Source: Sipunculus nudus
Lineage: Eukaryota > Annelida > Sipuncula > Golfingiida > Sipunculidae
Assembly (NCBI GenBank): GCA_026874595.1
Contig: CM049320.1
Span: 11,001,964 to 11,065,963 of the forward strand
Reading direction: 5' to 3'
DNA: 64,000 nt
A program made the position numbers and the translations under genes. Each line of letters starts with the position of its first letter. Positions within the stretch are counted from its first letter, which is position 1. The notes below the pieces were generated by a model. That model worked only from the letters and a program-made list of their open reading frames with translations. It was not told the origin of the DNA and did no database searches. This document shows, in pieces, positions 1 to 44,505 of the stretch.

Positions 1-210
1 GGGGGGGGGGGGAGCGACTGTCACTGGCAGGGGTAGAAGAGTGATTGAGTTGGAAATATATATTATGTAGGCTATATATGTATATATATATATATATATT
101 ATATATATATACACATTTTATAATGTGTGACATTTGTGTGATGTTGATATTATATATTAATATAGTGCAGGTTTTATGTTTCCACTGAATGTCAACTGTA
201 AACCATGTTT
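1..210. other. Non-coding left flank
   Basis: Starts with a run of G, followed by AT-rich sequence with a short (TA)n stretch around 60-115. I see no gene. The last four bases (GTTT, 207-210) form the left target-site duplication of the element that begins at 211. Confidence 0.6.
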
Positions 211-239
211 GGGCTAGATTTTCTTAACTGTCCACTTTT
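211..239 (+). repeat. Left terminal inverted repeat of the 4.5 kb element
   Basis: 29 bases starting GGGCTAGATT, the mirror of 4689-4717. The single mismatch is C here against G in the right end, at the 18th base. Confidence 0.85.
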
Positions 240-1814
240 ATGTATTTTTATGTCGCCAGCATGTTTTTCAAATCCAGTAGTAGATTTCACTTCAGGACTT
301 GTACCATTGGATAGATCGTCATCTGAGCTTGCTGTACATATGTAACATGACCAGGTGGCACTCACCACTGTCCTTGTTCTTGAATGGAAAACTTAAAAAA
401 TTAATTGATTTTTAAAGAAATGTTATGTCGCCAAAGCAATCCTTTATTTTCAATCGAGTAGCAAGATAGTGTAAAGAGAGTATGGTGAGTAATTAGCTTT
501 GTTCAGCCAAGCAATACACACTCATGATTGTAAAAAAGATATCAAAGCACACCTTGCATAATTACCTTCGAAAAGAATATCGAAAAAATAAATGTCTCCA
601 GAGTCATGTGTTCTCCTTTACAAAACAAAATGCTATACATAGAAATAGCTAAAACATCACTTAACCTATGGCGTATCATTGTTTATTAATTACTGGGTAC
701 CATGGTCTGTGTTGACGACAATTATTTCTGTATGCTTCTGGTTTTATTACGTATATGACAAATCAAATTCTGATACAGAGAGAGATGGGATAAGGAAGTG
801 ATCTCCTTTACGTCCAGTTCCTGAGTTACCATAGTACCAGCAGACTGTTAACACATACTGCTATATTGCTAGCCTACTAGTGACCCCTGTGTAATAAATG
901 AATATAGAAATACACAACACTGCTGTTCATATTAGAAGGCAACACGTCAGGGATGTGAACTCCTTTACGTGTTCTCCTTTATACCAAGACTTTTATGTCT
1001 CAGATTGTATAGAGGTAGTGTCTACATATTGACTCTAAGTTTGCACTTTGAACATCAGCCCCACCGTGTTTCTTGAAGATAGTACCAAGAAAGTGAGTCG
1101 TCGATACCACATGAATGTTTTCTATGACGCAACTTGTAACATTATGAAAACGATATTCCATTCTCCTGTTTCAAAGACCCAATTTAGTAGCCCAAAGCAT
1201 GAAATTAGTACTTTTATTTATTTATACTTTTCGTTTGCATCTTTTGTTTTTATATTAAAGCGAAAGTAAGAACATCTAACTCATAGGTCATCCCTTGAAT
1301 GTGGTATTAAAGAGCTGTAAAGGAGTTCACAGTGTGTGTAAAGGAGATCACTGCCCTAAATCTTTATCTTTTAAGGGCTACCTTCTTTTGATGAAGTGTG
1401 CTGGATTGTTTCAGATAAGAGTAATAAGTAATCTTCAGATGCTTATAAACTGATTTAACTATTATGTTTTATGAAAAATATATATTCTTTCACCAAGGGG
1501 TGCCAATATTCAATATGCCAATAATTTTCTAAATGACAAAATTAAAGCAAAGACATAATGAGGCATAAATTCCTTGTTACAAGGATAAAACCAAACCATA
1601 TCTTGCAAATAATACATGAGAAAGCAAACTATTTTTCATAACATCTAAATCCAGCTGAGATTGGTCAGGGTCAGATGTCACATGCGCAATGCTTATAAAT
1701 TTAAAAGCTGCTGATTTATTTTACTGGTACAGTGTTCTGAATATTCTGGATAAAATGTAAAGTAAAGTTGCCAATTGGTCATTAGCCCCAAAGAACTAGG
1801 ATGGATGTTAAATG

Positions 1815-2180
1815 TCAATATAGGTCCTATCTGACGTCTATTAAGCATAGATAATGTCGTGTATATCTTTATGAAAATAGGCCAGAAAACGCCGTTCTCA
1901 ATACGAAAAGGCTGTTCGTTTTGTTTATATCGTCTTGTTTATATCCACATGTTTATAACATGTGGGAACCGCAAAGGTAATCTTAATACATGCAACAAGG
2001 ACTTCTGGTGGCAAGTCAGATGAACCAGTGCCACTGAAAAGGGCTTTTTGCGACTATAGTGACCTTTCAGCTTCCGCACATGTGGAACCAACAATGTAAG
2101 GAAACAAGGTTATTTTTGTTTGTCAACAATGGCGCATGTACCGTGTTTACAAAGAGCTTGTAGATAAACATATGTATTAA
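1815..2180 (+). mobile_element. Diverged TTAA-family MITE fragment
   Basis: Shares blocks with the copy at 41058-41496 in the same orientation: the GGCCAGAAAAC block, the CATGTTTATAACATGTGGG block, and the CTTCTGGTGGCAAGTCAGAT block. It lies head to head with the better-preserved copy at 2308-2758. The ends are too worn to place exactly. Confidence 0.5.
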
Positions 2181-2307
2181 GAATTTTTCATAACAGAAAT
2201 CTAATACAATACATTAATTATGTATACGAAGTAAGCAATGCATCAATATACCTCTCTACTTCCCTTTTATTTAATATTTATTTATATCTGTGCTTTAATA
2301 TTATTAA

Positions 2308-2758
2308 AGGTGCCGATTCACCTACCTTCTGAAAAAGAATTTATGTGATTTCTGGCTTCCCCTGTATATATAAATGATCTAAGGGTAATGTTGTTTGTGA
2401 AAAGTTCATATAAGGCCTTCGTGAAGGATGAATGAATTTGTTTATCAACAACATGTTTGTAAACACAGCAATGTTGACAAATGGGTATAACATGTAACAT
2501 GTATATGCCGAGGTAGAAAGGTCACTTGTTGCAAATTGCTAACTGCAAAGCTCTGGGTTATATCTGACTTGATGCCAGATGCCCATGTTGAATTTGTTTT
2601 TATTATTTTGACAGCCCCCCCCCCCCCCCCCCCATACTATAAACACATTAATAAAACAAAACAAGCAGCCTGTGTGTGGTGATATCCATGTTTTCTGGCC
2701 TATTTTTATATGCTCTAAAGGATTACCTTTATAAAGGTCAGATAGGTGATTGCCACCT
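2308..2758 (-). mobile_element. TTAA-flanked MITE, copy 1 (451 bp)
   Basis: Begins AGGTGCCGATTCACCTA and ends in the inverted form TAGGTGATTGCCACCT. It is flanked on both sides by TTAA (2304-2307 and 2759-2762). TTAA duplication is the mark of piggyBac-type and some other transposases. It contains a run of about 18 C near 2616 where copy 2 has only a short GGGCCCCC, so the tract expanded after insertion. No coding capacity. Confidence 0.75.
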
Positions 2759-4688
2759 TTAAAAGTGAAAGCTATGTCTGTGATAAAATATATTTGTTTT
2801 TTTGGGGCCCATTTTACATGTATTAAAATTTTCCCCAACACACTTTCGACATGCTTTCTATGCCTTTTTAAAATTACATATGCATACATTTAAAAGCATG
2901 TTTTCAGTATATATTTTCTTTTAACATCCTACAGCAAATGTAGTCCATATGCAATTTTGCCATACCGCAGCCCCCACACAACTTTATATAATTATATTTG
3001 TTAGTTCTTTGAATATTTTTTTCAGGAACTTGAGCCTCTGTAACCCTCACACAGGCACACAGTTTGATTTACTTCATATCGATCTGATATCATTGCTCTA
3101 ATTATACCCTTGTATATAACAATGTTTGCATTTTCAGTCACTCTATTCTTATTGTTAAGGCCTTATATATACTTACTGTACAAACACAATAAAGGAGAGA
3201 TATACCGGCCCCACTATCTAATCCCCAAGTTAATTGCAAAACAATTACTTTTTTATTTTATTTGTAATAATGTGACCGGCTTGACACAGGTTTATAAAGT
3301 TGGCTCCATATGCGCAACATGACATTATATAAAAGACATATTTAGTCATTATAATACATAAGATTCCCCATTATCCACTTTTTCTGCGGGTGTTCTCTTT
3401 TACATAGAATATCTTTTCATATACCGTATCTTGCTGCATCACATACCTATCTTTTTATCTATCTTCCTGTCCTATCTCTTTATCTATCTTCCTGTCTGTT
3501 CTTCTGAAACTACAGCATTTTGTGTTTCCATTTTACTTTTTAAAAGTGATTAAACATTGTTCATTCAAGACGAGCATTTTATATTTTTTGAGATCATGAA
3601 TATTTCCCATCTCAAAGAAATAAAAAACATAATTGATCATATATAGTTCTCAGATTCGCACAATATGTCTGTTGGTGAAATAGATCTCACTAATCCCTGC
3701 ATGTATATTAGGTCTGCAATAGATTTGTTCCTTCTTAATAAGAAGTTATCTGGTTATAATTTCGGTGTTCTCCTTTACATGCCAATTGTCTGAATATAGT
3801 ATCTCGCCATCCCACTTATTTGTATTATCAGTTTAAGATTCAGGCTCATACAGAAAGAGGGTAGTTTCCTTTAATCTATTTGTGGTAAGTTTGGGTATGT
3901 TCTTATTACTATTATTCTGAACCATCACTGGTTATTAAATTTAAGATGAACGATCAAATAGATCTAGTTCTATTGGCCATATAGATCTAGTTCAATTTGC
4001 TAACAATGGTGGTACTGGTAAATGCATCATAACACAAATGCTGATATCAAGTACTTAAAATAAAACATTCCTTCAACAGGTGTTTGTTGTCCTATTTAGT
4101 ATTTCAAATACATAAACATTTGTATACCTTCCTTGTGTTCTCCTTAACATTGTCAACCTCTGTTTTGATGCCACATATGGAATATTTTTTCTGCCTTCTG
4201 GCTCAAAGAGTGAATTAATTTGGGGAAAATGAGATATTGTCTCATTGATAAAAGGCCAGAACCAGCCGAGGTCTTACTTTCTAATGTTCCACATTAATCA
4301 GTAATACATGTTTTAAAATGTTCAGAAAACATGTTTTATCCTAGAAAGACAACCTTTATTTTTCATATGCTTTACTGACACACATTTATATACACACCAA
4401 ATAGTGCCACAACGTTTATTTCCTCGATACATGATTTTCTGTACAGTGCCGGAGGTACTGCAGAATCATGGAGCATTTTTATTTGAAGACATTTCACCTG
4501 CTTCAGTAAAAAAGGTAAAGGAGATCACACACTGAATGCACACCTTATTTTGCTCATATGACAAAATGTGAAGGAGGGCAGTCCGGATGCTGTAATTTCC
4601 GGCACTTATTTTAGAAGACATGTACTTTCAGGCATTATAATTATTAATACGATATTTGAAACTTTATTTTGCTCATTTTTCCTAACTG

Positions 4689-4717
4689 AAAAGTGGACAC
4701 TTAAGAAAATCTAGCCC
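4689..4717 (-). repeat. Right terminal inverted repeat of the 4.5 kb element
   Basis: 29 bases ending ATCTAGCCC, the reverse complement of 211-239 with one mismatch. Directly followed by GTTT, the repeated target site. Confidence 0.85.
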
Positions 4718-5082
4718 GTTTAGATTATTAGATAACCTTATATTTCAGTTAACTCAGAAATGGAAACAAAGTCAAGTTTTCTAATTATTAATATATTACA
4801 TGTCCAATATATAAAAGTAATCGTTACTTCCTCAATATCAGTGTTGGGGATGATTACATTGACCAATCCCCCCTCGTTAAAAAAGTGGGGGGGGGGGGAT
4901 ATATAACCCCCATTCCCTGCATTGATGCCAATGTTTATCTTTAATTATTAAGTCATTTTTAGTTTCAGGGAATTACCAATTAGGAAAAAGGAAGCAAACC
5001 CCCCCCCCCCCCCCGACCCACAAACACACACACCTGGTCATGTCTGGGTGTATATCATGCATGAATGGTATAAATATACATG

Positions 5083-5622: not shown

Positions 5623-6558
5623 GTAAGTTTAAACATCACATAATAATATACTGCCTTTTTAGCTCAGCTGACTGTAAGTCATTTGAGCTACAGGGAAGAC
5701 ACCACCTCTGTCACTGTCATTCACTGAAAACATAGCACATATTGTTCTAGCAAGGCCTAGTGAAACCATCTGTAATGTCCAGGTTTGCTCAACTGGAAAT
5801 TTGCCAGAGACCCCCCCCCCCCCCCCCAACTCTGTTGTGCAGGGTTGCAATTTCCATTCATAATGTGGGTTGGATGGGTTTTTTGACACCCCCTCACTCA
5901 CATATAAGCCTTTGTAATGGGGTATACCACATCTCATCCATCAGTATGCATCAGACTGAGTGCATTTATACTTGTACTAAGATTCAAAATTGGTAGTACT
6001 TGCTTTATACATGTACTTGTCACACCTTAAAAAATAATAACTTTTCAAATAATAGTCAAGTTTATCATCAGGGAACCCGGAAAGATTACGCAGGTTTGCA
6101 TTATGCCTGTAGCCCTTGTTATATTATAATAGTTAGTATATGTAAATACAATTACAAATGTTACATCATTTTGTAATATAAAGGCTGTACTGCATATATA
6201 TTGCTTCCTATTTATAAATCCTCGTACACATGTGATGCTGTTTTTGCACCTTTCTGTTTATACACTGAGTAAAAACATTTGTTGACCCAATATTTACCAT
6301 TTTTATATGCAATAAAGCACTTTTGTTTATTAATTTATATACCTGCACTTACTTTGTAAATATTAATAATATGCCTGGTGCTGAGATTGTCTTTCGTTTG
6401 TTACATGTTTATCAGTTCTGTTTTTATATACTCCTGGAATTTGTTCTACTTGTGCAGGTGTTCAGAGAGCCATACATGCATCAATGATTAGAGGAAAGAT
6501 GACGTAAATGTTCCACGCCTTACCAAACTTAGAGCTGTGAACAAAGTACAAATGCAAG

Positions 6559-7496
6559 ATGTGCAAGGTGCACAACTACACTGGCAAGCAGTTGCAGGGT
6601 AAATTCCTAGCAGAGAACATTGCAGAAAAGGTACACCAAGGTAAGTTTGAATTTTATCATATTTTCTTTTGTAAAGTCCATGGCAATTTGAATAAGCTGA
6701 TGAGTTTAATAATCTGTGAAACAAGTATCTTACATATTGAACATTAGCAGTGATGCTGACCTAAATTCGCCTGCCTGTTTTTCATTCTCTCCATTCATTT
6801 TTATTCTAATAAACTTTTTGGCTTGCTGCTTGATGGAGCTGAGCCACGCTAACCTGACCATCTCTAACCTTACAGTGTCATTTGTCAAACCTGCTGATTA
6901 TTGGCTATTTTTTTTTAATTTTATGCAGTTTGGAACATGTTTACTCCCTATAAAACATTGCAGATATTCTGGTTTTCAAATATTCATAATATAATTATTT
7001 ACAGTTAAATAAAATAAAATCCAGGCCCATAGCCTTACTGTTAATTACTTCATATTTACACATACTTTCATTTGTGCCTTTAAAAATACATTTACAGGTC
7101 GATTGTCTGTAGAAATCATTCTGGAAAAGGACATTTCATAATTAAATCATCAAATCATGTATTTTTTTCCATAACCTTTCATATACGATCAGGTATGCAT
7201 TTTCAAAAGAAGTCTCTTTATTCCAATGAAATATTCTAACTCTCTCATAGATTTTAGAAAGATGGGCACTTAACAGGAAACAGTATTAATGTTATCCTTA
7301 TGCAGTGAATAAGTATTAGCAAGTGTAGTCTTGACCTTTCAGTGTGATGTACATGCTAGGCTTAATTTACTCTGTCAATATTTATTTATCTATACAACAG
7401 ATTTTATGTAAATAATATGGCACATAAAATGAAAAAAAATGATTATTAATCGATCAACTTTCAGTCATTGAGTATGATATTAAAACTGATTCGTTT

Positions 7497-7550
<54 letters not shown>

Positions 7551-8141
7551 TGCATTGTCTGTGTATTTGTATTTGCAGAAGCAAAGCTCCTATATACAGG
7601 ATACTGCCTTCACTGTTTAGAGAATGCAAGGATAATATGGGATTGCAGATGGAGGAGAGGTAATTCTTTCAAAACTGTTATATTTGTGTTAATATATTCA
7701 GCAAGTATTAAAGATAGTTTTAACCTTTTTTTAAGTAAATAAATATATAAAGAAAAATGTTGAAATTGTTAATTTTTTGTGGAGATAGAACAAAATCTTG
7801 GCCAGTTATTGTCTGTAATGTAAATGTAAAGATATATTTGATATAATAATGTATAATTATTTTCACTTCTAAAGGTTCCCATTGACCATAAGAAAACTAT
7901 TTTTGTAGTTATTGTTAAAATTTTGTGAAGAAAGAACAAAAGTTTATTTTCTGTAATGTAAATTAATAGAGCGTCAGACTTTGAAAAAAATCTAAAAATT
8001 AAAGGGATAATTGCACTGAACTATATTCTTGCATATTTCTCTCATGTTTCTTACATTTACAATCTCTCTTTTCTGTTTATTATTTTGTATGCAGGGAATG
8101 AGATCTCCAACACCTGTGAATGTTCAAGATGGGGACTGTAA
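6559..8141 (+). CDS. Candidate small cysteine-rich protein, three coding exons (69 aa)
   Basis: Proposed coding segments are 6559-6640 (in an exon starting at 6458 after TGTGCAG), 7579-7659 and 8095-8141. All junctions have AG/GT borders (donors GTAAGTTT and GTAATT), and both introns fall in phase 1, which keeps one frame open through three separate exons to TAA at 8139-8141. The product has CxxC pairs (GYCLHC in the second exon, CEC in the third). A further CKMC pair lies across the proposed ATG, because a TGA at 6538-6540 blocks the frame upstream. I do not recognise the family. The agreement of frame, phase and splice sites argues for a real or recently real gene. The very short product leaves room for a pseudogene or a non-coding transcript. 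A possible polyadenylation signal AATAAA is at 9047-9052. Confidence 0.4.
7499..7547. repeat. (TA)n microsatellite
   Basis: About 48 bases of TA repeat, in the intron between the second and third exons of the small candidate gene. Confidence 0.95.
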
Positions 8142-13383: not shown

Positions 13384-13616
13384 TTTAGAACACCGATTTC
13401 CCTGTGCGCGTAACCCCATTTGTAAATATACGTTTAATTATACCAAAAAAATAAATACCCAAGGCACAAGACAAGAGAGAATTAAAATAAACAACATATT
13501 AAGACGATTTACAATTATTAAGGATATGCTTTAAGAAATTATCAGCTTAATTTAGGACATTTAATCAGTCATTTAAATTAATAAACATTAAGATAATTTT
13601 AAATGTTTGCATTTTT

Positions 13617-13619
13617 CAG
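13617..13619 (+). promoter_or_regulatory. 3' splice site before the opine dehydrogenase start
   Basis: TTTGCATTTTTCAG ends here, a good pyrimidine tract and AG, 13 bases before the ATG at 13633. This implies an intron in the 5' UTR and makes the upstream in-frame ATG at 13603 intronic. Confidence 0.6.
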
Positions 13620-13632
13620 AGTTCTATCAACC

Positions 13633-14823
13633 ATGGTCGTAGCTCTCGTATGTGGAGGCGGAAACGCTGCCCATGTTTTGGCGGGAATGGGTGCGTCAAG
13701 ACCGGATACGGAAGTTCGGGTTCTTACTCTTTATGCCGATGAAGCTGAACGTTGGGAAAAGGCTCTAGAGGGCACCACCCTTTGTGTGACGTCCAAGGCA
13801 GATAAAAAGACTTACACTGCAAATCCGACAATGATTTCCAAAGATCCTGCAAAGGTGGTACCCGGATGTGATATCATCGTTATAACGGTTCCGGCTTTCG
13901 CGCATGCGCAATATTTCAAAGCCATTAAACCTCATCTTAAAGAAGGGGTTGTTATCGTCGGATTACCGGGGCGTGCTGGCTTTGATTTCGCAGCACATGG
14001 TATTCTTGGAGAGAAAGCCAAGTACTGTACTTTAATTTCCTTTGAATCTCTGCCTTGGGCTTGTCGGTTGACAGAGTATGGTTTGTCTGCCTCTATCTTG
14101 GGGACAAAACAAATGCTGCAGGGAGCCATGCAGCTCGGGAATCCAAACCCGCCATATGACCCAGTTGCCATGATGCAGCGCCTTCTAGGAGAACGTCCTG
14201 TACTTAAAACATCCGGGCACCTATTGAGCATGACTCTGATGGCGGTCAACTCCTACATTCATCCGTCTATTATGTACGGGTGCTGGCATGACTACAACGG
14301 GCTCCCACTAAAGGAAGCTCCGCTGTTTTACCAAGGCGTTGACGAAATTGCGGCTGATGTATTGACCAAAACCAGTAACGAGGGCGTTAGCGTTGCCAAG
14401 GAAATCATGAAACTCCGTCCTGAGGTTGATCTTACTACGGTGACTCCAATCATCGAGTGGTACCAACGTTGCTATAGCGACGATATCGGCGACCCAACCA
14501 ACCTGATGACGTCACTTCACACGAACAAAGCTTATGACGGTTTGAAACACCCAGTGATTGACAACGGGGACGGAAGCGTGGTTCCTAATTTCAAGTATCG
14601 ATATTTGACAGAAGATCTACCATTCGGTTTGGCCGTAGTCAGAGGCGTCGCAGAAATAATGAACATCAGCACACCTTACGTCGATAAAGTTTTATTATGG
14701 GGCCAGAAAAAAATTGGAAAGGAGTACCTTATTCAAGGCAAATTAAACGGCAAAGACGTCTGTGATACTAGAGCCCCTCAGGCTTATAGTTTAACAAGCT
14801 TGGATGCAATTTTAGGGTTTTAA
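13633..14823 (+). CDS. Opine dehydrogenase (octopine/alanopine/strombine/tauropine dehydrogenase family)
   Basis: 396 residues in one uninterrupted frame, close to the length of about 400 known for scallop octopine dehydrogenase. The family reductively condenses pyruvate with an amino acid using NADH in the cytosol, which regenerates NAD+ during anaerobic muscle work in marine invertebrates. The N-terminus has the dinucleotide-binding GGGNAAH (residues 8-14) of a Rossmann fold. NSYIHP carries His210, matching the catalytic histidine of the scallop enzyme (His212). TEDLPFGL carries Glu327-Asp328 at the place expected for its acidic partner (Asp329). I chose the ATG at 13633 because the family begins directly before the GGG motif, the context (CAACCATGG) is good, and a 3' splice site lies between it and the ATG at 13603. 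Which amino acid it uses cannot be told from sequence. The coding part has no stops, gaps or introns. Confidence 0.93.
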   Translation: MVVALVCGGGNAAHVLAGMGASRPDTEVRVLTLYADEAERWEKALEGTTLCVTSKADKKTYTANPTMISKDPAKVVPGCDIIVITVPAFAHAQYFKAIKPHLKEGVVIVGLPGRAGFDFAAHGILGEKAKYCTLISFESLPWACRLTEYGLSASILGTKQMLQGAMQLGNPNPPYDPVAMMQRLLGERPVLKTSGHLLSMTLMAVNSYIHPSIMYGCWHDYNGLPLKEAPLFYQGVDEIAADVLTKTSNEGVSVAKEIMKLRPEVDLTTVTPIIEWYQRCYSDDIGDPTNLMTSLHTNKAYDGLKHPVIDNGDGSVVPNFKYRYLTEDLPFGLAVVRGVAEIMNISTPYVDKVLLWGQKKIGKEYLIQGKLNGKDVCDTRAPQAYSLTSLDAILGF

Positions 14824-31702: not shown

Positions 31703-32104
31703 ATAAGCAAAAGGATCACGTTGCTTTACTTCTAATTTTAACAAAGCAGCCACTTACAAACTGAAATGAATTCGATGATTCCTACAAGAGGTGAAATAAA
31801 ATTACTGTACACAAAGACAGGTATAAAGTATACATAATTTTAAACCTGGCATAGTGTTCCTTTTTTTGTGTAAAAAACACACTTTAAAGGTACACTTTTT
31901 TATGTACCCAATAATAGTAAGCCGATTTTGTGTGGACTAATAATCAAACTACATAAGAAAATCTCAAAAGCTTTCTTGCTGAAAAAAAATTAGCTAGCTG
32001 TTAAGACTAGCTGTAACAATTAAATGTCTACCAACAGGTAAGTTATAACCAATACTATATATAATAATACATTTGATATATGTGGTTTTCTCTGTTCAAT
32101 AGCA

Positions 32105-32121
<17 letters not shown>

Positions 32122-32152
<31 letters not shown>

Positions 32153-32153
32153 T
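32122..32153. repeat. (AAT)n microsatellite
   Basis: Short AAT run after a (TA)n run. The copy B equivalent near 44552 is shorter, while its TA part is longer. Confidence 0.9.
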
Positions 32154-32787
32154 TTATTCATTTAATACCGCGCCAATATCCAGCACTTAGTGCTACTCAG
32201 TGGCGCCTTTACAGGTGAAGATGAAACATAAAATGATAAAAATTTAAGAAAAAGTTAAGAAATCTAATACAACTATTTGGTTCAAAATAAAATAATTAAA
32301 AATATGATGGTAGGATATGCTTTATATTGTAGCTAAGAGTTCATGATATTCCCATCATGAATATAACTAAATGTAGGCGAAGTTTATAAAGAGAAAAACT
32401 ATAAATTTTAAAAATGCAGCCCGAAACAGATAGGCTATATATATTTCTTGTTGAAAGTAAAATTTATGTTTTTTTTTTATTGAATCAAAATGTAAAAAAT
32501 TTCAGTTTCAATTACATGACATGAGACATGAGGTACTGTCACGTAGTTCAATATCAGCCTGCTAAAATAGAACTTGCTTTTACTGGGGGCTTAAAATAGC
32601 GTACTGAATTAATATGTAAAAAAAATGTGAAAATATCATATATGAAAATCTAAGGAAAAGTAAAAAATATGTATACCCTGAGAAAAAAATACCAGTTTAA
32701 TAAAAATGTATTCTCTATTGTTTTAGTATGAATTAAAAACAACATTTCGACTTATTTTAAATATAAGGGATATTGTCAGTTCTGCCA

Positions 32788-32814
32788 CTGAGAGAGAGAG
32801 AGAGAGAGAGAGAG
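32788..32814. repeat. (GA)n microsatellite
   Basis: About 27 bases of GA repeat. The copy B version at about 45192-45224 is longer. Confidence 0.9.
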
Positions 32815-32875
32815 ATCCCCGGGAAATTTTCTTAAATTGTCATAAGATAAATTTGACACTAAACTAAGTTTTGAT

Positions 32876-32876
<1 letters not shown>

Positions 32877-32927
<51 letters not shown>
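32877..32927. repeat. (TA)n microsatellite
   Basis: About 50 bases of TA repeat. In copy B the matching run (45379-45435) is preceded by about 100 bases that are missing here. Confidence 0.95.
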
Positions 32928-32930
<3 letters not shown>

Positions 32931-33133
32931 CAGCGGGTGTGCCAAATTATCATATTACTATAACACTTTGGCTGGCTTTTATGTCCCTTGCGTACTTAAC
33001 ATTACATGGAGAAAACAGCACAGAGAATGTGAAGCCAGTTTCCAATAAGACTTAAGGGCTTCAAGATAATATACCTTTCAGTTTCAGACATTTTTGTTTG
33101 TTCGTTTCACAAACCATTAAGCCAACTGTTGCT

Positions 33134-33871
33134 CATTGTATTGCCATTCTGATCAGATGGCCTGCGGTTGATCTTCGTGTAAACTGTTTCTTTGGTCTTA
33201 GAGAGTGCTTTTTTTATTTTCAGCTTTTGTTTTTATACTTCATTTTAACCGCAAGTTTAACAGTAAAAGCCTTTTTAATATTAATCAGAAAAGGGAAAAT
33301 ATCATACCTTCAAACAAAAATGTTTTAAACACGTCTCAGACATATTTAGGTGTTTCAACTGCTGCTCATAAATGACTTAGTGTACCACATATATGACTCA
33401 CAAAACATATCATTTGATGCGCGCATGTAATAGTAAATTTGAAACATGAGCGAAAGGGCACTTTTTGCAGCGAATCTGCTTATAATAATACTAATACCTG
33501 ACAGACAAAAAATTGTGGAAACACGTTTCCTGGTTCAAATTAAAACAATATTCCGCCGATTCTTTAAACACGTGGTGGGGTTTCAAAACATAACGCATTT
33601 AACATCTACGCTTTATCGTTTAAGTTTGAACCATGTTTCAGGGACAGGTGATATCAACGTGTTTTGCGATATGTCAAACGCGCATAACATGCTTTAGTTT
33701 TTACATCTTAACCTGAAACAGTTGTCTTACGGACATGAATAATGACATGTTCCAAATGAAAGATAACATGTTTAAGCTTGAAACTGAAAAATGTGTAAAA
33801 CGCAAGTTCGTCTAATCTTTCGCATTTCTAAGCATATAAATCAGCGTTCATATACTTACACTATTTACGAA
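33134..33871. repeat. 738-bp tandem repeat, unit 1
   Basis: Starts CATTGTATTGCCATTC and is repeated at 33872-34609 with only scattered differences. The boundaries share the trinucleotide CAT. Copy B has a single unit here (about 45645-46380). Open frames in it are short and not protein-like. Confidence 0.9.
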
Positions 33872-34609
33872 CATTGTATTGTCATTCTGATCAGATGGCC
33901 TGCGGTTGATCTTCGTGTGAACTGTTTCTTTGGTCTTAGAGAGTGCTTTTTTTATTTTCAGCTTTTGTTTTTATACTTCATTTTAACCGCAAGTTTAACA
34001 GTAAAAGCCTTTTTAATATTAATCAGAAAAGGGAAAATATCATACCTTCAAACAAAAATGTTTTAAACACGTCTCAGACATATTTAGGTGTTTCAACTGC
34101 TTCTCATAAATGACTTTGTGTACCACATATATGACTCACAAAACATATCATTTGATGCGCGCATGTAATAGTAAATTTGAAACATGAGCGAAAGGGCACT
34201 TTTTGCAGCGAATCTGCTTATAATAATACTAATACCTGACAGACATAAAATTGTGGAAACACGTTTCCTGGTTCAAATTAAAACAATATTCCGCCGATTC
34301 TTTAAACACGTGGTGGGGTTTCAAAACATAACGCATTTAACATCTACGCTTTATCGTTTAAGTTTGAACCATGTTTCAGGGACAGGTGATATCAACGTGT
34401 TTTGCGATATGTCAAACGCGCATAACATGCTTTAGTTTTTACGTCTTAACCTGAAACAGTTGTCTTACGGACATGAATAATGACATGTTCCAAATGAAAG
34501 ATAACATGTTTAAGCTTGAAACTGAAAAATGTGTAAAACGCAAGTTCGTCTAATCTTTCGCATTTCTAAGCATATAAATCAGCGTTCATATACTTACACT
34601 ATTTACGAA
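33872..34609. repeat. 738-bp tandem repeat, unit 2
   Basis: Direct repeat of 33134-33871, present only in copy A of the segmental duplication. Confidence 0.9.
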
Positions 34610-34634
34610 CATGTTTAAGGAAGGCAGCCGGGAG

Positions 34635-34715
34635 ATCTCGGCTTAAATTGCTCTCAGCAAAAATTCACGGCTTAAATGACAACTCAGCCAGAAAACCACG
34701 GCTTAAATTCACTAT
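34635..34715. repeat. Three diverged copies of a CACGGCTTAAAT unit
   Basis: The word CGGCTTAAAT recurs at roughly 30-base spacing, three times. It is also present in copy B near 46402-46475. Confidence 0.6.
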
Positions 34716-37700
34716 ATGCATGGCTACTCAGCCATGAAATGTAAAAAAAAAAACTGCCCGGTTTTATGTTGTTGTAATATATTATTTCGATTTCTAATGA
34801 TAATATTTTTTTCTGGATAGGCGTTCTTTGAATACACGTAGGCCTGGTGCAAGTAGGCCTTGATTTCGAAGTAATGTGTTGAAAATCACACTATTCTTCC
34901 TATTTTATCTATTTGTCTCCAATAACTCTTTAAGAGTCTAATAAGACCATTCATGATGCGGCGGTATTCAGGCATAATTAAGTGCTGCATATCATTTGCA
35001 TAGTTACATCGCTGGGATTGCGAAAGAAAAAAGATATATGTTGTATGTTTATTCTTTAAAATAGAATACCCAAGAAATTAATTTAAATTTATTGGTCTTA
35101 TATCATGTAATATATAGTCTATCATCAGAAACTGAAAAAGCAAAAAAGGCAAAAAAAAAAAAAAGATTGTGTGTCAGGAACTTTTTTTTAGAAATCAGTG
35201 CGCCAGTACGATTTTGTTTTTAACCTATTTTTGTATGTTTCTATAAAAATTTCATATGAACAGGGAAAAGCGTGATAATAACAATGCTGTTATGCTAAAC
35301 AGGTAAAAGTACTACATAAAAAGGAAATCTGATAAAAATTGTATTATTTTATCTTCTTCAAAATTTTTATTGAACATCAAAATAAAAATGTTTGATGCGG
35401 GGGAGGGGGTTATAATTGACGCGCGCTTGGTCTGTTTTTGGCCTAAAATTTAGAATTTTGTTTAATGTAATTTTCCGGAAATTACATTAAAAGTGTCATC
35501 GCCCGAACATTCCTCTCCCTTCACTACTCACCTCGGCATGGCCCCGCTTCCAAATGTGTTTGTTCTCGTTCAAAAATAGCCGATATCTGGCACAGCTGAC
35601 TCAATATTCTTAATATGATATAAACAAGCCTTAAGAACTAAACTTATTTGACAGTATCAGCTCAGTGATTTGCTATACCTACTTAATTTTCTGGCGTTTC
35701 ATCCCCCCCCCCCTATTTCTGAGTTGTTTACTTAGTAGCCCGATTTAATCAGACTCAATATTATAGGCCTTATAATATTGAGTCCGATAAAATCGAGCAA
35801 GTTACCGAGTCATGAGTCACCACTATATATGACATGGTTAAACTTCAACATGGAAAGGATTCTATAAATAATGATGTATGTTATGCCAAGCTCAAAACAT
35901 GATTTTAAATCATTGTTTAGCGACGATGTAGCGAAAATACCTGCATAATCGGTTGTCAGACTGAGTCATAATGTTACCTTAATATGAAATTGTAAATAAA
36001 ACAGGTTATACACACTGATACCTAACCATTACTGGTCAAAATGCCTGCAACCTTTAGTCTCCTCTACCTGTCTACCTGTAACTGAAATACACGACTAAGC
36101 AGGTAACTATATTGGACTGGTAAAGCTGTATGAGGTATGACACAAGTCACACAGGGAAATACACTGCATCGGCCATCCGTCCTATTGCATCGATATCGTG
36201 GTAAACAGATAATCTTAACATTATGCTGCGAGTGATGTTACAGCACAAAAAGAAATACACATTGGTAAATCCGTCTCTATATTAACAAACCCTTTCCTGT
36301 GTCTGTACATGATTGTGACCCATCCGAGACATGCTTTCATTCATGCTGTCCAAATTACTGCAACATGCACAGGGGTTTCGCAATATTCTGTGTTACAACT
36401 GATTTTATCTTTCCCGCACACAACTATATCTAACGATTGGTTATTGGTTTATTTAAAGTGACAGCGTTCCAGTAGGCCATGAGGCGTTTTCAAAATGATG
36501 AAAATATTTGGACGGACTTTTTTCCTCGCACACGGCAGGAGAAGTTAAAAGTACTCAAACATATTTTACAACTGGTTTGGTTTATAAAGCGTAGATATTT
36601 ACATCCTCATCAAGTTTTATTGAGCGGTACTTAGCAAAACTTAAGAAGGTCCGAGTAAATAAAAAAAACCCAGAATTTTACAGGATATTTCACAGGTTAA
36701 ACAATAAACGGAATGCAGTAAAATCGATTGATTCTAACATTGACTCATTTTTAATTAATCAAATATGATACAAATAAAGAACACCATTATGAAATATCTT
36801 AACCGTTATTGCAGAGCTTATGACGAAAATCATGTTAAAGTTTAAATGTAGCTCGCTTGAGGTCAAACATTCACGTCAACCATTGATGTGAAACTGTGTC
36901 CGGTGCCAATGTTAAAATGCCTTCTTGTTCAGAAGTTAAACTGTTGCGAATGTTAACATATATCATTTGAATAAGATTTAAAGTTTGACAATGGTTGAGA
37001 TGATAAACATCAAACACCCATATAAAATATCTGGAGAATGTATTAGTATACCTATTTTCTTTTCCAGTGAAACCATCTGTTTTTACGAAAGTCGTATTTG
37101 CAAAGGGTCCAGTAGATTGAAATATGCTGATTTCTTCACCCGTTTGATTCTAAATAATCAGGGCACAGATATATCTCAATCAGAATGCCAAAGAGGTAAT
37201 AAATATGTGTAATGAAGCACTATTTGCTTACACTTATCCTTAATAATTAATTTTCTATCTTTGCGTAATTATTCGCTTGTGGCTACAAGAAAATTCATGG
37301 ATTTTTTAAAAGTGTAAATTAAGGAAATTGATGTTCCTGAACATCAGTGTGGTATTATAAACTGTTTGGATAAATTTCATTTCAAAGAAGTTGCGGTAAA
37401 ATTATCGATAGTAGTAATTAAGATTAATACGACGGAGCTTCCAGTGACATTCGTTCATTTGATGCTGAAATTTACGGGTTGAGAGTAGATTATTGTTTGT
37501 ATACGATCTATGCATATAAACACAGCAAAATCGGTTGGCTCATTCGGTTGTATCTCATTTTCAAATAATCAATATACATATTAGAAACACTTTTACAAAT
37601 ATTAATAATTTGTTTCAGTAAATATGACAAAAAAGGTGTGAAGGTTGAATGTAGCCCGCTGCAGGCCAGAAGTCATCCGTTGATATGACTCATCTTCTGG

Positions 37701-40547
37701 CTACATTTATTTGGCCCCAATATTTGAACTGTGGTTTTAATATATATTATTATATATTCTAAAATAAATCAACACTGCATAAATGTTAGGATGATAAAGA
37801 TCATGCTATAAGTATTATATGTGCGTTCTGGGCAGCTCAGAGTGTGATTGAAGTACATTCGCAGTCTTGACCATTTTCCAGGCAACACCTGGAAAGATTT
37901 TGATTAAGGTTCTAATCAAATCATATACTCATTGTCTATTCCTTCAAGACAATCTCTTATAATGCTGTGTGTAAAGTCGCATTTACAACTTAAACAGATT
38001 ATTGAAAAAAATTGAGCAGCCTAAATCCTTGATCATTGAGGAATTGTCCATTTAGGCATCGCAATCACGACACAAGGTATACAAGCAAGTGATGAAATTG
38101 TCAGAATAGTAACAAAAAACAGCATTTGTTTATATCCTTAGTACTTTCTAACTGGAGGAGACAAATTTGGCTCGTGGTTTTTTTCAGATCAATGCAGTCT
38201 TATACTTAAATACCTTTTGAGTACAAAAGTATGTAAAGTGGGTTTTTCATTCGTTTTAGAAAAAATATATCTCTATAAAAATGTGTCAATAATATTATCA
38301 ATTTACGTTGGTTCAGAATGCAAAATTGCCAAACTTTTTCAAGGCGTTTTAGTCAGTAGCTCTTGCATGTTTAATGGACTGAAAGCAAATTCTTACTCTC
38401 TTCACTATTTTTAATTATGTATTATGAAAAATTTAATTTTGGTATAATAAGTTTGCGGAACTCAACTCTAAAATTAATTCAAATTACCAGGAAAGGAAAT
38501 ATCTAGGTTTTTCGTCCTTAGTAACACATAAGGTATAAAATTACACTTTTCCAATCTAAATTGTTTAGACATATGAAGAAATTTCCAACTGTAACTGTTT
38601 CTGATTATATAGTAATGTAATAAGTATGAATATGCTTATGTTGTATTATGATGCTGAGACCGCCATTTTAGTGTAAGTTTAAAGTTTTGTATAAGCAAAC
38701 ACGAAAATATCTATCATAAAAAGGGATTTAGTCTTGCGTTTATCTACACATTCTGACGAAATATATGGTTCAGAGATGTTTGCTAATGTTGGATTTCTAA
38801 AGCTTAGAACATCTATAGAGGATATTTGGATAAACGAATAACAGAGATATTAGATTTGGATTTCTCATTTGCGATTAAATCATTTATTACATATATTTGC
38901 AATGAATTGGGAAATAAAATGGCCTGTGAAATATAATAATAAATGCATCATGTATTTATGGTATTTATTCTTACATTTATATTTTACATTTACATAATAA
39001 AAAAAAGAAAACACTTCAAAACAGGTGAGAGTTAAGAAAGTAATAACATTCAGGAATAATAAAGGAATAAGAAATATAGGTCAATATTCTATAAGACATG
39101 ATAAGTAATGAATATTCAAGTAACATCGTATTTATTCATCCCTTGTGGGATAAACCGCTGTAAAAACCAAACAGACAGTTTGCTGCATAAAAATGCAAGA
39201 CAGATTCATTGTAAAAAGTACCGCAAAATTAAAAAGACTAAAAGACAGGAAATACAGCACCATCTTCAATTAAGTCTTGAAAATTTAGAATGCATGTGAT
39301 TCAATATGTAATCAAAACAGAGGCAGCAGACAATTTTTCCATCTCAAAAAGAACATGGCAGGATAATTGAAGATTGATCATGTTTATATTTTGCTGAAGC
39401 CTTTAAACCTATGAACGACTTAAACTATTAAAAATTAACTAAAAATGCTACAAATAACTGTTCAAAGGTTGAGGTCTCTATGCGAAATCTAGATCCCAAA
39501 CTAAAGTCAAACTACAATGAGCACAAAGGCAAAGATCAATAAGTCCTTATAAACAATACTCTCAAAAGCAAGCCAACACAATATATAAAAAAATATTAAA
39601 CAATCTCTGTACTTATATATTCCTTTTCACTGAAAACGTTTATTTATTATTTGCTTACATTGTTGCTGACCAACATTTTGAGATCTGTCATGCTCACGCG
39701 ATATTTGTTGAGATATGGGCTTCTTGCTCACGTGGTAACAAATAAACATATTAATTGGTATATCATTTGTGATATTTTTTCCAGAAAAAGCGGATCTCAA
39801 GTGATTTTTCCTTTCCCTAATCCTATTTTTTCAAATTAAATTTCATTATTTCGATGAGCAAATGCCGAATGGATTTATGACACTTAAATGAAACTGGTAT
39901 GAACTTCAGGTGTTCTCCCACTCTAAAATCAAACATCTGGATGTACTGTATCTACCTAAAAAGTAGGTTTTTCCGGTCCGTCAATATTTGCCCCAGATCT
40001 GACGCTAACCCACCTGACTACATGATCTCCTCTTTCACTGAAAGTCCTAGACGTAAAGATAAAAAGTAGGAGTTTAAAATCTGATATCACCGACGATGTC
40101 AGTCTCATCCGACTCTTTGCCTTCCTGGTCTTTCGGTCTATTCTTGTAGCTTTTTCAGCTCACTCGGGAGCATACAACCCAAGCATCCATAACAGGCGCT
40201 AGAAGATTATTTGTTCAACACTTGCCTGACACCCATGACCAGTACCCATTCTCCCTTTTACCCTTGTGGTAAAGACTTTGGCTCGACGGTCAGATCCAAC
40301 TTTTAACCGTTTGGTCACAAGTCCCGCGCACTAACATGGGCCAGCACTGTCAGTTTGATAATAGATAAGTGCCCACCATTGGTTCAACTCAAAATATCGA
40401 CGCATTAACCATGCGCTTGACCACCAAACAGAAAATCTACACCATATCACAGTATTGTTTTGTCGCATGGATTAATGACTATACGCCGCTGGTGAAACAA
40501 CTGAATTGTAATTGACGGGTACTGGGACGGGAAATATCTACACATAA
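34716..40547. other. Non-coding part of copy A, between the tandem repeat and the lectin gene
   Basis: No recognisable exon on either strand. Open frames up to about 75 codons are mirrored in copy B only because the duplication is recent. Holds the palindrome near 35741-35796 and a C-run near 35704. Confidence 0.55.
35741..35796. repeat. Long palindrome (cruciform-capable)
   Basis: GACTCAATATTATA and its exact reverse complement TATAATATTGAGTC face each other across GGCCT. The outer arms CGATTTAATC and GATAAAATCG continue the pairing imperfectly. It is kept unchanged in copy B (about 47501-47557). Confidence 0.7.
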
Positions 40548-40553
40548 TTTATT
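40548..40553 (-). terminator. Polyadenylation signal AATAAA, lectin gene A
   Basis: AATAAA on the minus strand about 205 bases after the stop of lectin gene A. The same signal is at 52321-52326 for gene B. Confidence 0.5.
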
Positions 40554-40757
40554 TTTAAAATATACCATAAACGGAATTAATGTGTTTAAATATCAATCTT
40601 GCAACCTAAAGTTCATGCTTACATCACCGGTGACTGCATTGTCCAATCGACATAATTCTAACATTTAACTGCGTGTACAACATGGATAAATCGAACAAAA
40701 TCCCACATTCATAACGCCCTGCATCGCTCTCACGGTCTTCTTCACTACAGGCAGGGT

Positions 40758-42726
40758 TTATGTTATCGTTTTCTCACATATGAATCCCTGCCGGGAAAGA
40801 TTAGGAATTCTCTTGTTAAGCCAAATATACGTATGAGGTTTAAGTGCAAGATAAGGCGCATAGAAGGAACTCAGTAAATCAGGCTCCATGAATTGCCAGT
40901 TAGTGAAGGTGTCCTGCAGTGTTTCTCCAGTGCTCACCCAGGTCCAAGTATTTGATATGTACCTTCCACCTATCCAGTAGAAATACCCTGCAATAATTCC
41001 CCTTGGAAACAAAATTTTAGCGGAGCTGAATTTGTGTTAACATAATTGTTTTCTTAATGGGCCTAATCGGCTATCTTACCTTTATAACAAAAGGTAATCC
41101 ATTGGAGCTTTTATGAAGAAACAGGGCAAGAAAACCTGGATATCACCGCATACAAGTCTTTTTTATATCAATGTGTTTACAAAATGTGGGGTCCACCAAA
41201 ATAAAACAAATTCAACAAGGGCATCTGGCGGCAAGTCAGATAAGCCAGAAATTTGCAAATTGTGTTTTGCAACAAGTGATCTTTCTACCTCCGCGTATAT
41301 GCAACCTACCACCATAGGTTACATGCTTTTTCCCGTTTGTCAAAATTGCTGTATTTAAAAAACACTTTGTTGATAAAAATATTTCATATATCCTTCAGGC
41401 GTTACAAGAACTTTACATAACCGATTTACCCTTAGATCATGAATATATACAGAGGAAGCCAGAAAACACATCACCTCTTTTACAAAAGTTAGGTAAATGG
41501 GCAGTGTTTATAGTAAATTATTTTTAAATATTCATGACGACTGCAAATATAGATATTCGGACCGTCTAGTGTTCAAAAAAAGAGAAGAGGTATTTCCCTG
41601 TTATATACTCGTAAAAATAGGGATTCTAAAAATATGTAAATATTATCTTATTACATTTAAAATATTTTTAAGGTACCATGTTAATATTATTAGTTCATTG
41701 TTAACGAAGACGGGTAGTAATGTAAGCAATGATAAAAAATCGATAGACTCATCTAAATAGTCAGTATCATAAATTGAAATTACCAAAAAGTTATCACAAT
41801 ATACCTGGTCGGAGGGTTTTATTCGATTTGATGACTCCGCTCAAATGTTCCTGCTCTCCAAAGGACTCAATTGCTACCAAGGAAGCACCCATGTCATTAC
41901 AGGCATCCAGCGCACTATGCCAAGATATAGCAGGCTTAACAGCATATGAGACTTCAAAACGGTAGCAAGATTGCTTATATGGGAAACTGAATCCTTTTGG
42001 GCAACTCTGTAAAACTAAATTAACAAACAGCATATATTCACATTCGACTTTTTATGCACGATGATGTGGTATTATTAACAATAAATTTATATCTTCATCT
42101 TCTAAAATATTTCTCACTCATACTCTCAAATTAAGTGAAATAATATTTATTTTCATGCAAAATTGAATCGTCCAATTGCAAAGACATATTTTTTTACACC
42201 TACCGAAATCTACAGCCGAACACTCTGCCGGACGCCAGGGAAAAACAACTGATGATAACACTGTGCACATGTCTTCACATATATTTATGAACTCGCACTG
42301 TAGACGACTCTGTTTCATGCATGTATTCACACAACGTCCATTCCAAACGGGTCTTGTGTGTCCAAGTTTCCTTCTTAATCTCATTAACATTAAATTAATA
42401 TCACATAGACTGCCCAAAGGTGCTAAAACGGAATAAAAACATTTCAAACGTTGGGTCTAAAAATTAAGTGTCACAGTTTTTTTAAACATTTATTCAGTTT
42501 GTTTTCATTTTCTCTCATTTCATCTGATCAAACATTTCATCACAGGAACCCACCGTCACATCAAATAAAATGAACTCGGGATAAATACAGGGTACCAAAT
42601 TCAAGAAGCATAAAAAAATGTAAATATTTGATTGAATAGTTTGTATGGGTGCCACATTTACCAAACACATAATTACTCACTGTATACAGGAATTAGTATC
42701 ACAAAAAGAAACAATTTCCTGAACAT
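40758..42726 (-). CDS. Secreted C-type lectin-like protein, gene A (copy A)
   Basis: Four coding exons, all joined in phase 1: 42726-42681, 42422-42204, 42014-41805 and 40987-40758, giving 234 residues. Exon 1 is a signal peptide (MFRKLFLFVILIPVY) with donor A|GTGAGT. Exon 2 encodes a cysteine-rich module spaced C-x23-C-x3-C-x7-C-x9-C, plus extra cysteines. Exon 3 gives the first half of a C-type lectin domain: SCPKGF, SCYRF, then W-SAL-C-MGASLVAIES. Exon 4 gives the second half: YFYWIGGRY, W-W-TGETL, NWQFMEPD, and the closing FICEK. The domain has the outer disulphide cysteines but lacks the WND calcium ligand motif and the inner cysteine pair, so classical calcium-dependent sugar binding is doubtful. 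A secreted recognition or matrix role is inferred. Intron 3 holds a TTAA-family MITE. Confidence 0.88.
41058..41496 (+). mobile_element. Diverged TTAA-family MITE in intron 3 of lectin gene A
   Basis: Reads as the reverse complement of the 2308-2758 and 27404-27866 copies from end to end (CTTACCTTTATAAC near the left end, GTTAGGTAAATGGGCAGTG at the right end). TTAA precedes it at 41054-41057. The right flank has decayed to TTTA. The copy B version is cut off at about 52963. Confidence 0.7.
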
Positions 42727-42798
42727 GTTTCCCTTGCCAAACTTCCCCTTAACAGAAATTACTGACGGACTGGATCAGGAGTACGTGTATTTCGCTGC

Positions 42799-42806
42799 TA
42801 TTTTAA
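42799..42806 (-). promoter_or_regulatory. TATA-like box, lectin gene A
   Basis: GGCTTTAAAATAGC on the minus strand about 75 bases upstream of the ATG, with a CGTCAGTA initiator-like sequence between. In copy B the same place (about 53979-53986) reads GGATTTAAAATAGC. Position and conservation fit a core promoter, but no transcript start is known. Confidence 0.3.
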
Positions 42807-43383
42807 AGCCCAGAGAAGAATCAATCACAACAGTCATTTGCTGATGTTGTTTATATTATAATACTGTATAATGCTTATGTTTCCCTAAACAACAAAAGTT
42901 TAAAATTTGCAATAGAAATGCAAACATAGAACTTAATTACCTTAAACAATAGGTAAAATGAAATGAAGTCACGCAACGAAGTCACATCAGACAGAATGGG
43001 ACAAAACAGGTTCAACAGACATGACAAAGATACTCAATTTTTATTGCACCAGAGCCTCGATATGCGGAGCCATTTTGTCACCTACCTAAAATATCTATAC
43101 TCTTCTCTTCCGCCGTTGGAATAACATTTAACTAGAGCATTTTGTTGACAGCTTGGAATTCAGATTTTACATAAAGCTTGTAACAGATATCAAACCTTAT
43201 AATGAGCAAATAATTATAGAGTTAATTGAACTCCGACTAGCTTTGTGTAGATGTCAAACGTTCGGCCTATACAGTGACATGCACCAAAAAATAAAATGCT
43301 GTTTGTTAGTGGTTCATACGAATGAGGATAATATATAGATCAGTGTCAAACCCAAACTTAAACATTCTCATCCACTAATCCAC

Positions 43384-43385
<2 letters not shown>

Positions 43386-43431
<46 letters not shown>
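43386..43431. repeat. (TA)n microsatellite
   Basis: About 46 bases of TA repeat. Copy B equivalent is at 54568-54614. Confidence 0.95.
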
Positions 43432-43439
<8 letters not shown>

Positions 43440-43720
43440 GTCAATGAACATAAAAAGAGGTGAGACATCAACGCCAATATTTGAAACAATCATATTATTT
43501 GGATAACATGTACAGATTGTTGCTAAAATTTCAGCTACCCCTGTAGCCTTTGTCACAGCGAGTGACTAACTGTAAACAAAGCTGATAGTTTGACCCTTCG
43601 CTAGGTCAACGGGGCTGGCTTGCCAGCTATACCCATTAATCTGTATGATGTCTTGTCAGGACTGGCCTGTGTATATCCACATGAAAACATGGCTGTTTGG
43701 GTGTCAAAGACAGGGAGGGG

Positions 43721-44053
43721 TTAGTCTCGAGGGGAAAAGTGTGTGCTGAGTGCCGGGTATTTACAGAGAAAAGCCAAGTTCCTGTTTATTCCTTTTATCT
43801 GCGTACGTAGGGTATGAATGTGCTTTTGTTCTGTCTTTGCTGGAGGGAAAGTTGCCTTTAAGGATGGTGAATGTAAAATCTCGGCGAAAATGGTCGGATT
43901 GTTAAAATGTGCGGCCACGGGGAATCCGGGAGTCTTGTCGCGGATGTTTTTTTTGTGGTTGTTCATTCTGAGTCTGAATTTCGTGCCGGTTCCTCCTATA
44001 TAATTTCCCTCCCAATTGGGGAATTTTTTACAAGTAATAAAGTAAACTAGCAA
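43721..44053 (-). pseudogene. Penelope-like element fragment, GIY-YIG endonuclease end (copy A)
   Basis: Minus-strand frame reads VYFITCKKFPNWEGNYIGGT, then KFRLRMNNHKK and FPVAAHFNNP. The GIY (here VYF), YIG, R and H-x-N positions are those of the GIY-YIG nuclease domain at the end of Penelope-like reverse transcriptases. The typical ILKGNFPSSKDR block is found in another frame, so there is at least one frameshift, and the main frame resumes at HTLRTQIKGINRNLAFL. There is no reverse transcriptase upstream: the fragment starts abruptly at GTAATTGC next to a small GC-rich hairpin. It is an inactive, 5'-truncated copy. Confidence 0.75.
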
Positions 44054-44101
44054 TTACCCGTGCTACGCACGTTTGGGACGAACACAACACAACCATACGG
44101 T
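44047..44101. repeat. Hairpin-bearing repeat fragment at the duplication junction
   Basis: CTAGCAATTACCCGTGCTACGCACG: GTGC and GCAC pair around TA-C. The same sequence with a longer perfect stem (CCGTGC-TAC-GCACGG) closes copy B at about 55234-55284. There it continues into GTATCGGAAATCC...TTAATATATAGAT up to about 55350. Confidence 0.55.
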
Positions 44102-44505
44102 ATAAGCAAAATGATCACGTTGCTTTACTTCTAATTTTAACAAAGCAGCCACTTACAAACTGAAATGAATTCAATGATTCCTACAATAGGGTGAAATTAA
44201 ATTACTGTACACAAAGACAGGTATAAAGTATACATAATTTTAAACCTGGCATAGTGTTCCTTTTTTGTGTAAAAAAACACACTTTAAAGGTACACTTTTT
44301 TATGTACCCAATAATAGTAAGCCGATTTTGTGAGGACTAATAATCAAACTACATAAGAAAATCTCAAAAGCTTTCTTGTTGAAAAAAAAAATTAGCTAGC
44401 TGTTAAGACTAGCTGTAACAATTAAATATCTACCAACAGGTAAGTTATAACCAATATTATATATATCATAATACATTTGATATATGTGGTTTTCTCTGTT
44501 CAACA

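Follow-up and report, generated by a model that had tools for sequence, protein, structure and literature searches.

In CACTA elements such as En/Spm and Tgm, a word of 12-17 bp is repeated in both arms and both orientations, asymmetrically between the arms, and is needed in cis; in En/Spm these subterminal repeats are recognised by the element protein TNPA (PMC2613891; here, as for the other papers cited, in the parts of the source drawn on). Galileo, of the P superfamily, has three dispersed THAP sites up to ~0.7 kb from the end, proposed as a source of specificity (PMC3688188), and Herves, a hAT element, has a 1,478-bp left end with 100-bp tandem repeats and a transposase that binds subterminal sequence (PMC3143072). 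Descriptions of Sola elements give a DDD transposase, 4-bp target site duplications (TSDs), lengths of mostly 2-9 kb and terminal inverted repeats (TIRs) from 11 bp (PMC10741241), and those of Sola2 elements from amoebae give AT-rich 4-bp TSDs, ATAT included, with one transposase of 888 aa (PMC3627910). Here we describe a transposon in a 64,000-nt stretch of the Sipunculus nudus genome (GenBank assembly GCA_026874595.1, contig CM049320.1, positions 11,001,964 to 11,065,963 of the forward strand), the whole of which is called the window below. The element carries ten copies of the 14-bp word GTGWWCTCCTTTAC, and we consider it likely that these sites represent the subterminal binding array of a cut-and-paste, Sola-like DNA transposon family, in which the word would be bound by a protein.

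A sequence-only reading of the window had reported ten copies of this word between positions 608 and 4528, in both orientations and with close pairs at 955/969 and 1317/1338, and had judged them far from chance. All ten sites (seven exact, three with one mismatch; Table 1) and both pairs were found where that reading had placed them, and the 64-kb window holds no further match at up to two mismatches. Shuffles of the window (n = 100) had on average 1.28 and at most 5 matches at up to two mismatches, and in 200 dinucleotide shuffles of the element no match was seen at up to one mismatch, compared with the ten observed. A de novo count of 11-mer families reached 10 in the element vs. 3-5 across 100 shuffles and 3-6 in 12 other 4.5-kb stretches of the window (28-bp satellite excluded). 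The scan of the window with a position weight matrix, built from the same ten sites, was clearly bimodal, with all sites scoring at least 21.3 and the next best match 10.4. Chance or base composition as the source of the array is ruled out by these shuffles, the word count and the matrix scan, in agreement with the earlier judgement.

The sequence common to the sites comprises 14 bp, perhaps with 2 or 3 additional bases on the 3′ side, and the flanks differ. Two W positions vary among the sites (TT, AT, AA) and the remaining twelve are nearly fixed, a pattern suggestive of a protein-binding site. The left arm contains six sites and the right arm four, in both orientations. As had been noticed before, they lie in both flanks of the element and are missing from a nested zone of miniature inverted-repeat transposable element (MITE) sequence, an absence that taken alone has a chance probability of 0.095. 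The TIRs pair at 28 of 29 bp and begin with GGGCTAG (GGGC...GCCC), and beyond them the arms show no inverted repetition of each other. No significant copy of GTGWWCTCCTTTAC was found within the TIR (best 9/14, chance 0.235), which leaves the idea of the TIR as a degenerate copy of the word unsupported. No transposase match was obtained with the open reading frames (ORFs) or read-through frames of the element, the few Pfam matches being far below cut-offs, and no coding remnant was found in it. The window copy, which keeps both TIRs and the arms without a gene, is best explained as a non-autonomous member mobilised in trans.

The exact motif occurs at 149 places in the 1.4265-Gb genome (G000) vs. 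40 for a reversed-pattern control; the analysis of individual places covers 100 of the 149, to which all statements below on motif places refer. The TIR pattern, at up to two mismatches, has 45 places in the genome and none with the reversed control; 77 of the 100 motif places are no more than 6.5 kb away from such a TIR place. Beyond the TIR neighbourhoods there are 4 clustered and 19 isolated places. The clustered ones sit in two loci, L017 and L019, both alignable with the element, and at least two of the isolated ones adjoin element pieces (L023; C4:62699651). The 19 isolated places do not exceed the control, which predicts about 27 background places per 100, and GTGWWCTCCTTTAC is therefore not supported as an ordinary genome-wide factor site. 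Among the 100 places, the enrichment is limited to relatives of the element; the equal density in unrelated DNA that the sequence-only reading had named as its counter-evidence was not seen, the word standing at background level outside the family.

Outside the host, the TIR pattern gave no match in viral contigs or in genome contigs. A search with the paired-motif pattern returned one viral and two bacterial places, which we regard as coincidence; none has a TIR at up to three mismatches, and those in L001 and L002 fall inside bacterial or phage open frames. At L002 5731-5774, within an open frame of Candidatus Parabeggiatoa, the word is matched three times in tandem (up to two mismatches), which was also judged coincidental. 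The letters of the motif or TIR had no match in the main text of the papers searched.

A 6,264-bp relative of the element (L012; G000:C1:91935854-91942117), with TSD ATAT and TIRs matching the 29-bp repeat, contains an intact ORF of 877 codons between the arms, and its array consists of ten sites in the same order and orientation as in the window copy. The arms were aligned for the window copy, L012 and 18 (left) or 16 (right) other rows. Results showed that position, orientation and spacing of the sites are conserved between copies, the point on which the sequence-only reading had proposed an alignment. In the comparison of the window copy with L012, 80/82 site columns (97.6%) were identical in the left arm and 53/56 (94.6%) in the right, 133/138 in all, and the arms outside TIRs and sites retained only 784/1225 (64.0%) and 740/1260 (58.7%) identical columns, respectively (Fisher p 5e-13 left and 2e-9 right, columns taken as independent). 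Identity by offset was 0.5-0.8 before the word, 0.8-1.0 at offsets 0-16 and 0.3-0.9 beyond, giving a footprint with a sharp edge at the first base of the word and an end 14-17 bp farther on. Nine blocks with at least 14 of 15 bases identical were found between the arms of these two copies: the two TIRs, five blocks with sites, covering six of the ten (608, 955, 969, 1317, 3765 and 4515), and two others (Table 1).

Intervals in the left arm, from the window copy and L012 respectively, were 368/367, 176/176, 143/143, 334/331 and 7/7 bp, all within 3 bp of each other, and those from site 9 to the right end were 366/367 and 160/160 bp; the inner right-arm intervals (361/345 and 356/344 bp) differ by 16 and 12 bp. 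A column test was done on 15 representative rows, omitting L013, L026 and L031-L033, which are near the window copy, and L037, which is near L012. Without L012 the sites were still more conserved than the rest (p 6e-7 left, 0.003 right), the copies being related and the columns non-independent.

The family looks small, because a 318-bp right-end piece has at least 26 matches in the genome, a lower bound. It includes recent copies: over ~4.5 kb the window copy shares 99.5% identity with L031 and 99.4% with L032. All ten sites were present at up to two mismatches in seven of ten two-ended copies scanned, and the others had 9, 5 and 5. Among 11 two-ended single-locus copies, eight had identical 4-bp flanks (ATAT four times, ATAA, TTAA, TACT and GTTT), which were missing in L014, L015 and L034. 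Both flanks of L026 and the left flank of L032 are AT repeats, where the length of the TSD is unreadable. Two further copies are split, one having TGCT on both sides and the other no TSD. The former, of 22.9 kb (G000:C10:64466940-64489792), has ~18 kb of other sequence separating the outermost right site from the rest.

Another gene-bearing copy, L037 (G000:C14:9894830-9901111; 6,282 bp, TSD ATAA), has 99.1% DNA identity to L012, with the frame in two pieces. Over 720 codons the two differ by 2 synonymous and 3 non-synonymous changes, too few to judge selection. Other ORFs of at least 90 aa in L012 are all no longer than 116 aa and either overlap the 877-aa ORF or lie within an arm. The 877-aa product (P0001) has at least 53 matches in the genome at E ≤ 0.001 (122 candidates, 52 scored); no other fetched copy of the element was among the matches listed, and a protein search of viral contigs returned no relative. 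Similar proteins are, we presume, common in invertebrates and may belong to Sola. P0001 was aligned with eight relatives picked for long open stretches. Invariant columns include C379, H382, D499, E502, H553, D584, Q589 and H619, and D625 is retained in 8/8 sequences reaching that column (nine aligned). The pattern of D499, D584 and D625 suggests a putative DDD nuclease, and the 877-aa ORF is taken as encoding the putative transposase of the family. The letters of its transposase motif had no match in the main text of the papers searched. Two distant relatives on different contigs, L038 and L039, share 99.7% identity across at least 6.17 kb; the protein they encode has 36-37% identity to P0001, and one arm carries tandem repeats of ~280 bp. 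No clear array was seen in L038-L040, in which the element ends were not found.

The array, TIRs, TSDs, family and ORF, as well as the conservation of the sites with their order and spacing, are established by sequence. The word is repeated in both arms, confined to the family as far as the 100 places show, and conserved above the arms that surround it, and we take the array as explained to the level of class, a functional-looking subterminal binding array. The conservation of the sites is strong comparative evidence for predicted protein-binding sites that would be required in cis. Of the two proposals in the sequence-only reading, a transposase-binding array or a host-factor site, the former gains predictive support from near-fixed sites in arms that are ~60% identical and from the putative transposase of a related copy. 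A non-autonomous copy would require only the cis sequences read by mobility proteins. As the sites are fixed in copies without a gene, a role in mobility is favoured over one in gene expression, and hence a binding array for the transposase or an element partner is favoured as well.

In the mechanism that we propose, the transposase, or a partner protein from the same element, would bind all ten copies of the 14-bp word, six of them left-arm and four right-arm sites. The bound protomers would gather both arms into a single complex, which would deliver the catalytic domains to the 29-bp TIRs; the element would then be cut out and inserted with a 4-bp duplication. The array rather than a single site would confer specificity, since a large genome contains isolated copies of the word by chance. 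Because no significant match to the word was found in the TIR, different surfaces or proteins probably recognise the TIR and the array, as in En/Spm, where TNPA takes the subterminal repeats (PMC2613891). The binder, whether transposase or element-encoded partner, and likewise the architecture of the complex, are predicted from these features of the DNA.

Several observations weigh against a binding array of this kind. Searches of Pfam, NCBIfam and PDB sequences with P0001 found nothing significant, and neither did a search of PDB with a four-sequence profile. The sites at 798, 1338, 3390 and 4135 fall below the threshold of 14 of 15 identical bases for a block. Most single comparisons with closer copies gave no significance, because little has changed between them. 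For L018 the right-arm sites are conserved less well than the remainder of the arm (34/42 vs. 893/1021), and those of L031 and L032 score slightly below the rest, in their case because of the change at 4135 private to the window copy; L033 has an additional change of its own at this site. The strongest comparison rests on a single pair of subfamilies, and the presence of the array in both is one inheritance and not ten independent events. Measured from the two ends, the first sites are at 189 and 397 bp and the last at 1.3 kb, distances greater than those given for the CACTA and Galileo arrays in the sources consulted, and the arms are not mirror images of each other.

A variant of the proposed array, whose probability is a part of that given to the array as a whole, is that a second, TnpA-like accessory protein encoded by the element binds the sites instead of the catalytic transposase. 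In En/Spm the subterminal repeats are bound by TNPA and not by TNPD (PMC2613891), and the missing word in the TIR would also fit such a division. L012 has, on the other hand, a single long ORF (877 aa), although a spliced second product is conceivable. We regard this variant as unlikely.

The sites could instead bind a host transcription or chromatin factor and act as an enhancer, insulator or silencer, either for expression of the transposase gene or to protect the element. Regulatory elements of this kind typically consist of short sites arrayed in both orientations, the Su(Hw) sites in the gypsy element being an example of host-factor sites, and in L012 the sites flank the ORF on both sides. 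The measurements presented here do not separate a host protein from an element protein. Against a host factor, copies without a gene have nothing to express, yet there the sites are still better conserved than the arms; among the 100 places the motif outside the family is at background, and every cluster lies within or beside an element copy. On this balance we find a host factor unlikely, though nearly on a par with the accessory protein.

The spacing of the sites has a period of 184-185 bp (p 0.0008, or 0.008 with the close pairs merged), which was noticed post hoc and is not relied on. A rather doubtful elaboration would be a long-range array of fixed geometry on which Sola-type transposases assemble, its ten sites set in steps of ~185 bp, i.e., of nucleosome scale, over 1.1-1.3 kb per arm. 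Chromatin folding would gather the sites, and the array instead of the TIRs would be the main identity tag of the element.

That the sites are passive traces of old tandem duplications, of ~375 bp in the right arm and of other lengths elsewhere, with the 14-mer undecayed, is very improbable, as passive repeats would not remain 95-98% identical inside arms that are 59-64% identical. Spacings in the right arm are indeed similar (375, 370 and 380 bp; chance 0.00013, post hoc test), and when each arm is compared with itself without gaps, identity rises a little at one lag of the left arm (365, z 3.1) and at two of the right (390, z 2.7; 375, z 2.5), among 500 lags per arm. The sequence upstream of site 3390 weakly resembles that of 3765 (p 0.0036) and of 4135 (p 0.014) in a set of 84 comparisons, and the ~280-bp repeats of L038 offer a parallel. 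Yet the sites occur in both orientations with flanks otherwise unrelated, and lag 375 was not one of the eight best in a banded self-alignment. Tandem duplication may account for the origin of the array, not for its maintenance.

Table 1. Coordinates of the transposon, its ten sites and its other features in the 64-kb window
Feature	Position	Strand	Remarks
Non-autonomous DNA transposon, 4,507 bp, Sola-like by structure	211..4717	+	TIRs, 4-bp TSD
Left target site duplication GTTT	207..210		
Left terminal inverted repeat, 29 bp	211..239	+	
Extra conserved block, left arm	251..269	+	at least 14/15 identical to L012
Site 1	608..621	+	exact, GTGTTC type; seen in other copies
Site 2	798..811	+	exact, GTGATC type
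Site 3	955..968	+	exact, GTGAAC type; head-to-tail with site 4
Site 4	969..982	+	one mismatch in window copy; exact in L031, L032
Site 5	1317..1330	-	exact, GTGAAC type
Site 6	1338..1351	-	exact, GTGATC type; 21 bp from site 5
Nested MITE zone without sites	1820..2764		MITE between TTAA ~2304-2762 and partial second, inverted copy ~1826-2178
Site 7	3390..3403	+	one mismatch, common to most alignment rows; exact in L012
Site 8	3765..3778	+	exact
Site 9	4135..4148	+	one mismatch, private to window copy among aligned rows
Site 10	4515..4528	-	exact, GTGATC type; 189 bp from right end
Extra conserved block, right arm	4580..4594	+	at least 14/15 identical to L012
Right terminal inverted repeat, 29 bp	4689..4717	-	
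Right target site duplication GTTT	4718..4721		

The absence of sites from the nested zone (Table 1) fits its being a separate, TTAA-flanked MITE insertion. Similar sequence was found elsewhere in the window at 27.4-27.9 kb, 41.06-41.5 kb and 52.84-52.96 kb. In an 11.7-kb copy of the element (L016), the 24 bp of this zone at window 2130-2153 are repeated without change more than 20 times (6351-7903), at multiples of ~28 bp; here the MITE segment seems to have seeded a minisatellite. Two copies of a shorter word, TATGTCGCCA, lie in the left arm (window 249-258 and 424-433), and the first overlaps the conserved block at 251-269. Farther along the window, an uninterrupted 406-aa ORF (13603-14823) matches octopine/opine dehydrogenase (Pfam E 6e-30). 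A segment of about 12 kb occurs as two adjacent copies (31703-44101 and 44102-55284; 93-98% identity), probably a recent tandem duplication, and includes an ORF with a GIY-YIG match under the curated cut-off. A satellite of 28-bp units in ~56 copies (62435-63990) occupies the end of the window.

If our interpretation is true, end recognition in a poorly characterised type of animal transposon could be studied with this family, which offers the ends, a set of recent copies, a candidate transposase with an intact frame and a precisely delimited candidate for the binding site. Comparison of gene-less with gene-bearing copies, in which TIRs and sites stand out, would be a general route to transposase-binding sites. 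The kept spacing of sites located over 1 kb from the ends would also be informative on the amount of end DNA that a transposase complex organises.

Among described systems, membership in hAT or P was rejected on the TSDs, which are 8 bp in hAT and 7-8 bp in P, and 4 bp in the present family. CACTA/Chapaev (CMC) was rejected since its termini begin with CAC (CAC...GTG in Chapaev; PMC4079192), where the present element starts with GGGCTAG, and Ginger since it needs 5′-TG...CA-3′ (PMC10741241), where we find GGGC...GCCC. The transposon literature drawn on here, as far as it was covered, offers no counterpart to an array of ten sites with kept spacing over 1.1-1.3 kb per arm, and a few searches of Sola descriptions (PMC10741241, PMC3627910, PMC10294476) met no mention of a subterminal repeated motif in the parts consulted. 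Herves differs from our family in its 11-bp TIRs, compared with 29 bp here (PMC3143072). Galileo is similar in having several dispersed sites, here predicted ones, for the DNA-binding domain of a transposase, but its sites lie in long TIRs with tandem repeats, in contrast to the 29-bp TIRs and 4-bp TSD of the present family. The likeness to CACTA elements consists in a short word repeated in both arms and orientations, asymmetrically between the arms. The soybean Tgmt repeats, however, are within 159 bp and 732 bp of the ends in the data of PMC2613891, whereas our sites reach 1.3 kb, and CACTA termini and a 3-bp TSD are absent here. The family fits the Sola superfamily (Sola2-like) by its DDD-like motifs, size and TSDs, as judged against published descriptions of Sola alone. 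Its TSDs, seen in 8/11 two-ended copies, are 4 bp long and mostly AT-rich, its lengths of 6,264 and 6,282 bp and its 29-bp TIRs fall within the 2-9 kb and at least 11 bp of Sola elements, and its 877-aa protein with D499, D584 and D625, a putative DDD triad, compares with 888 aa in one Sola2.

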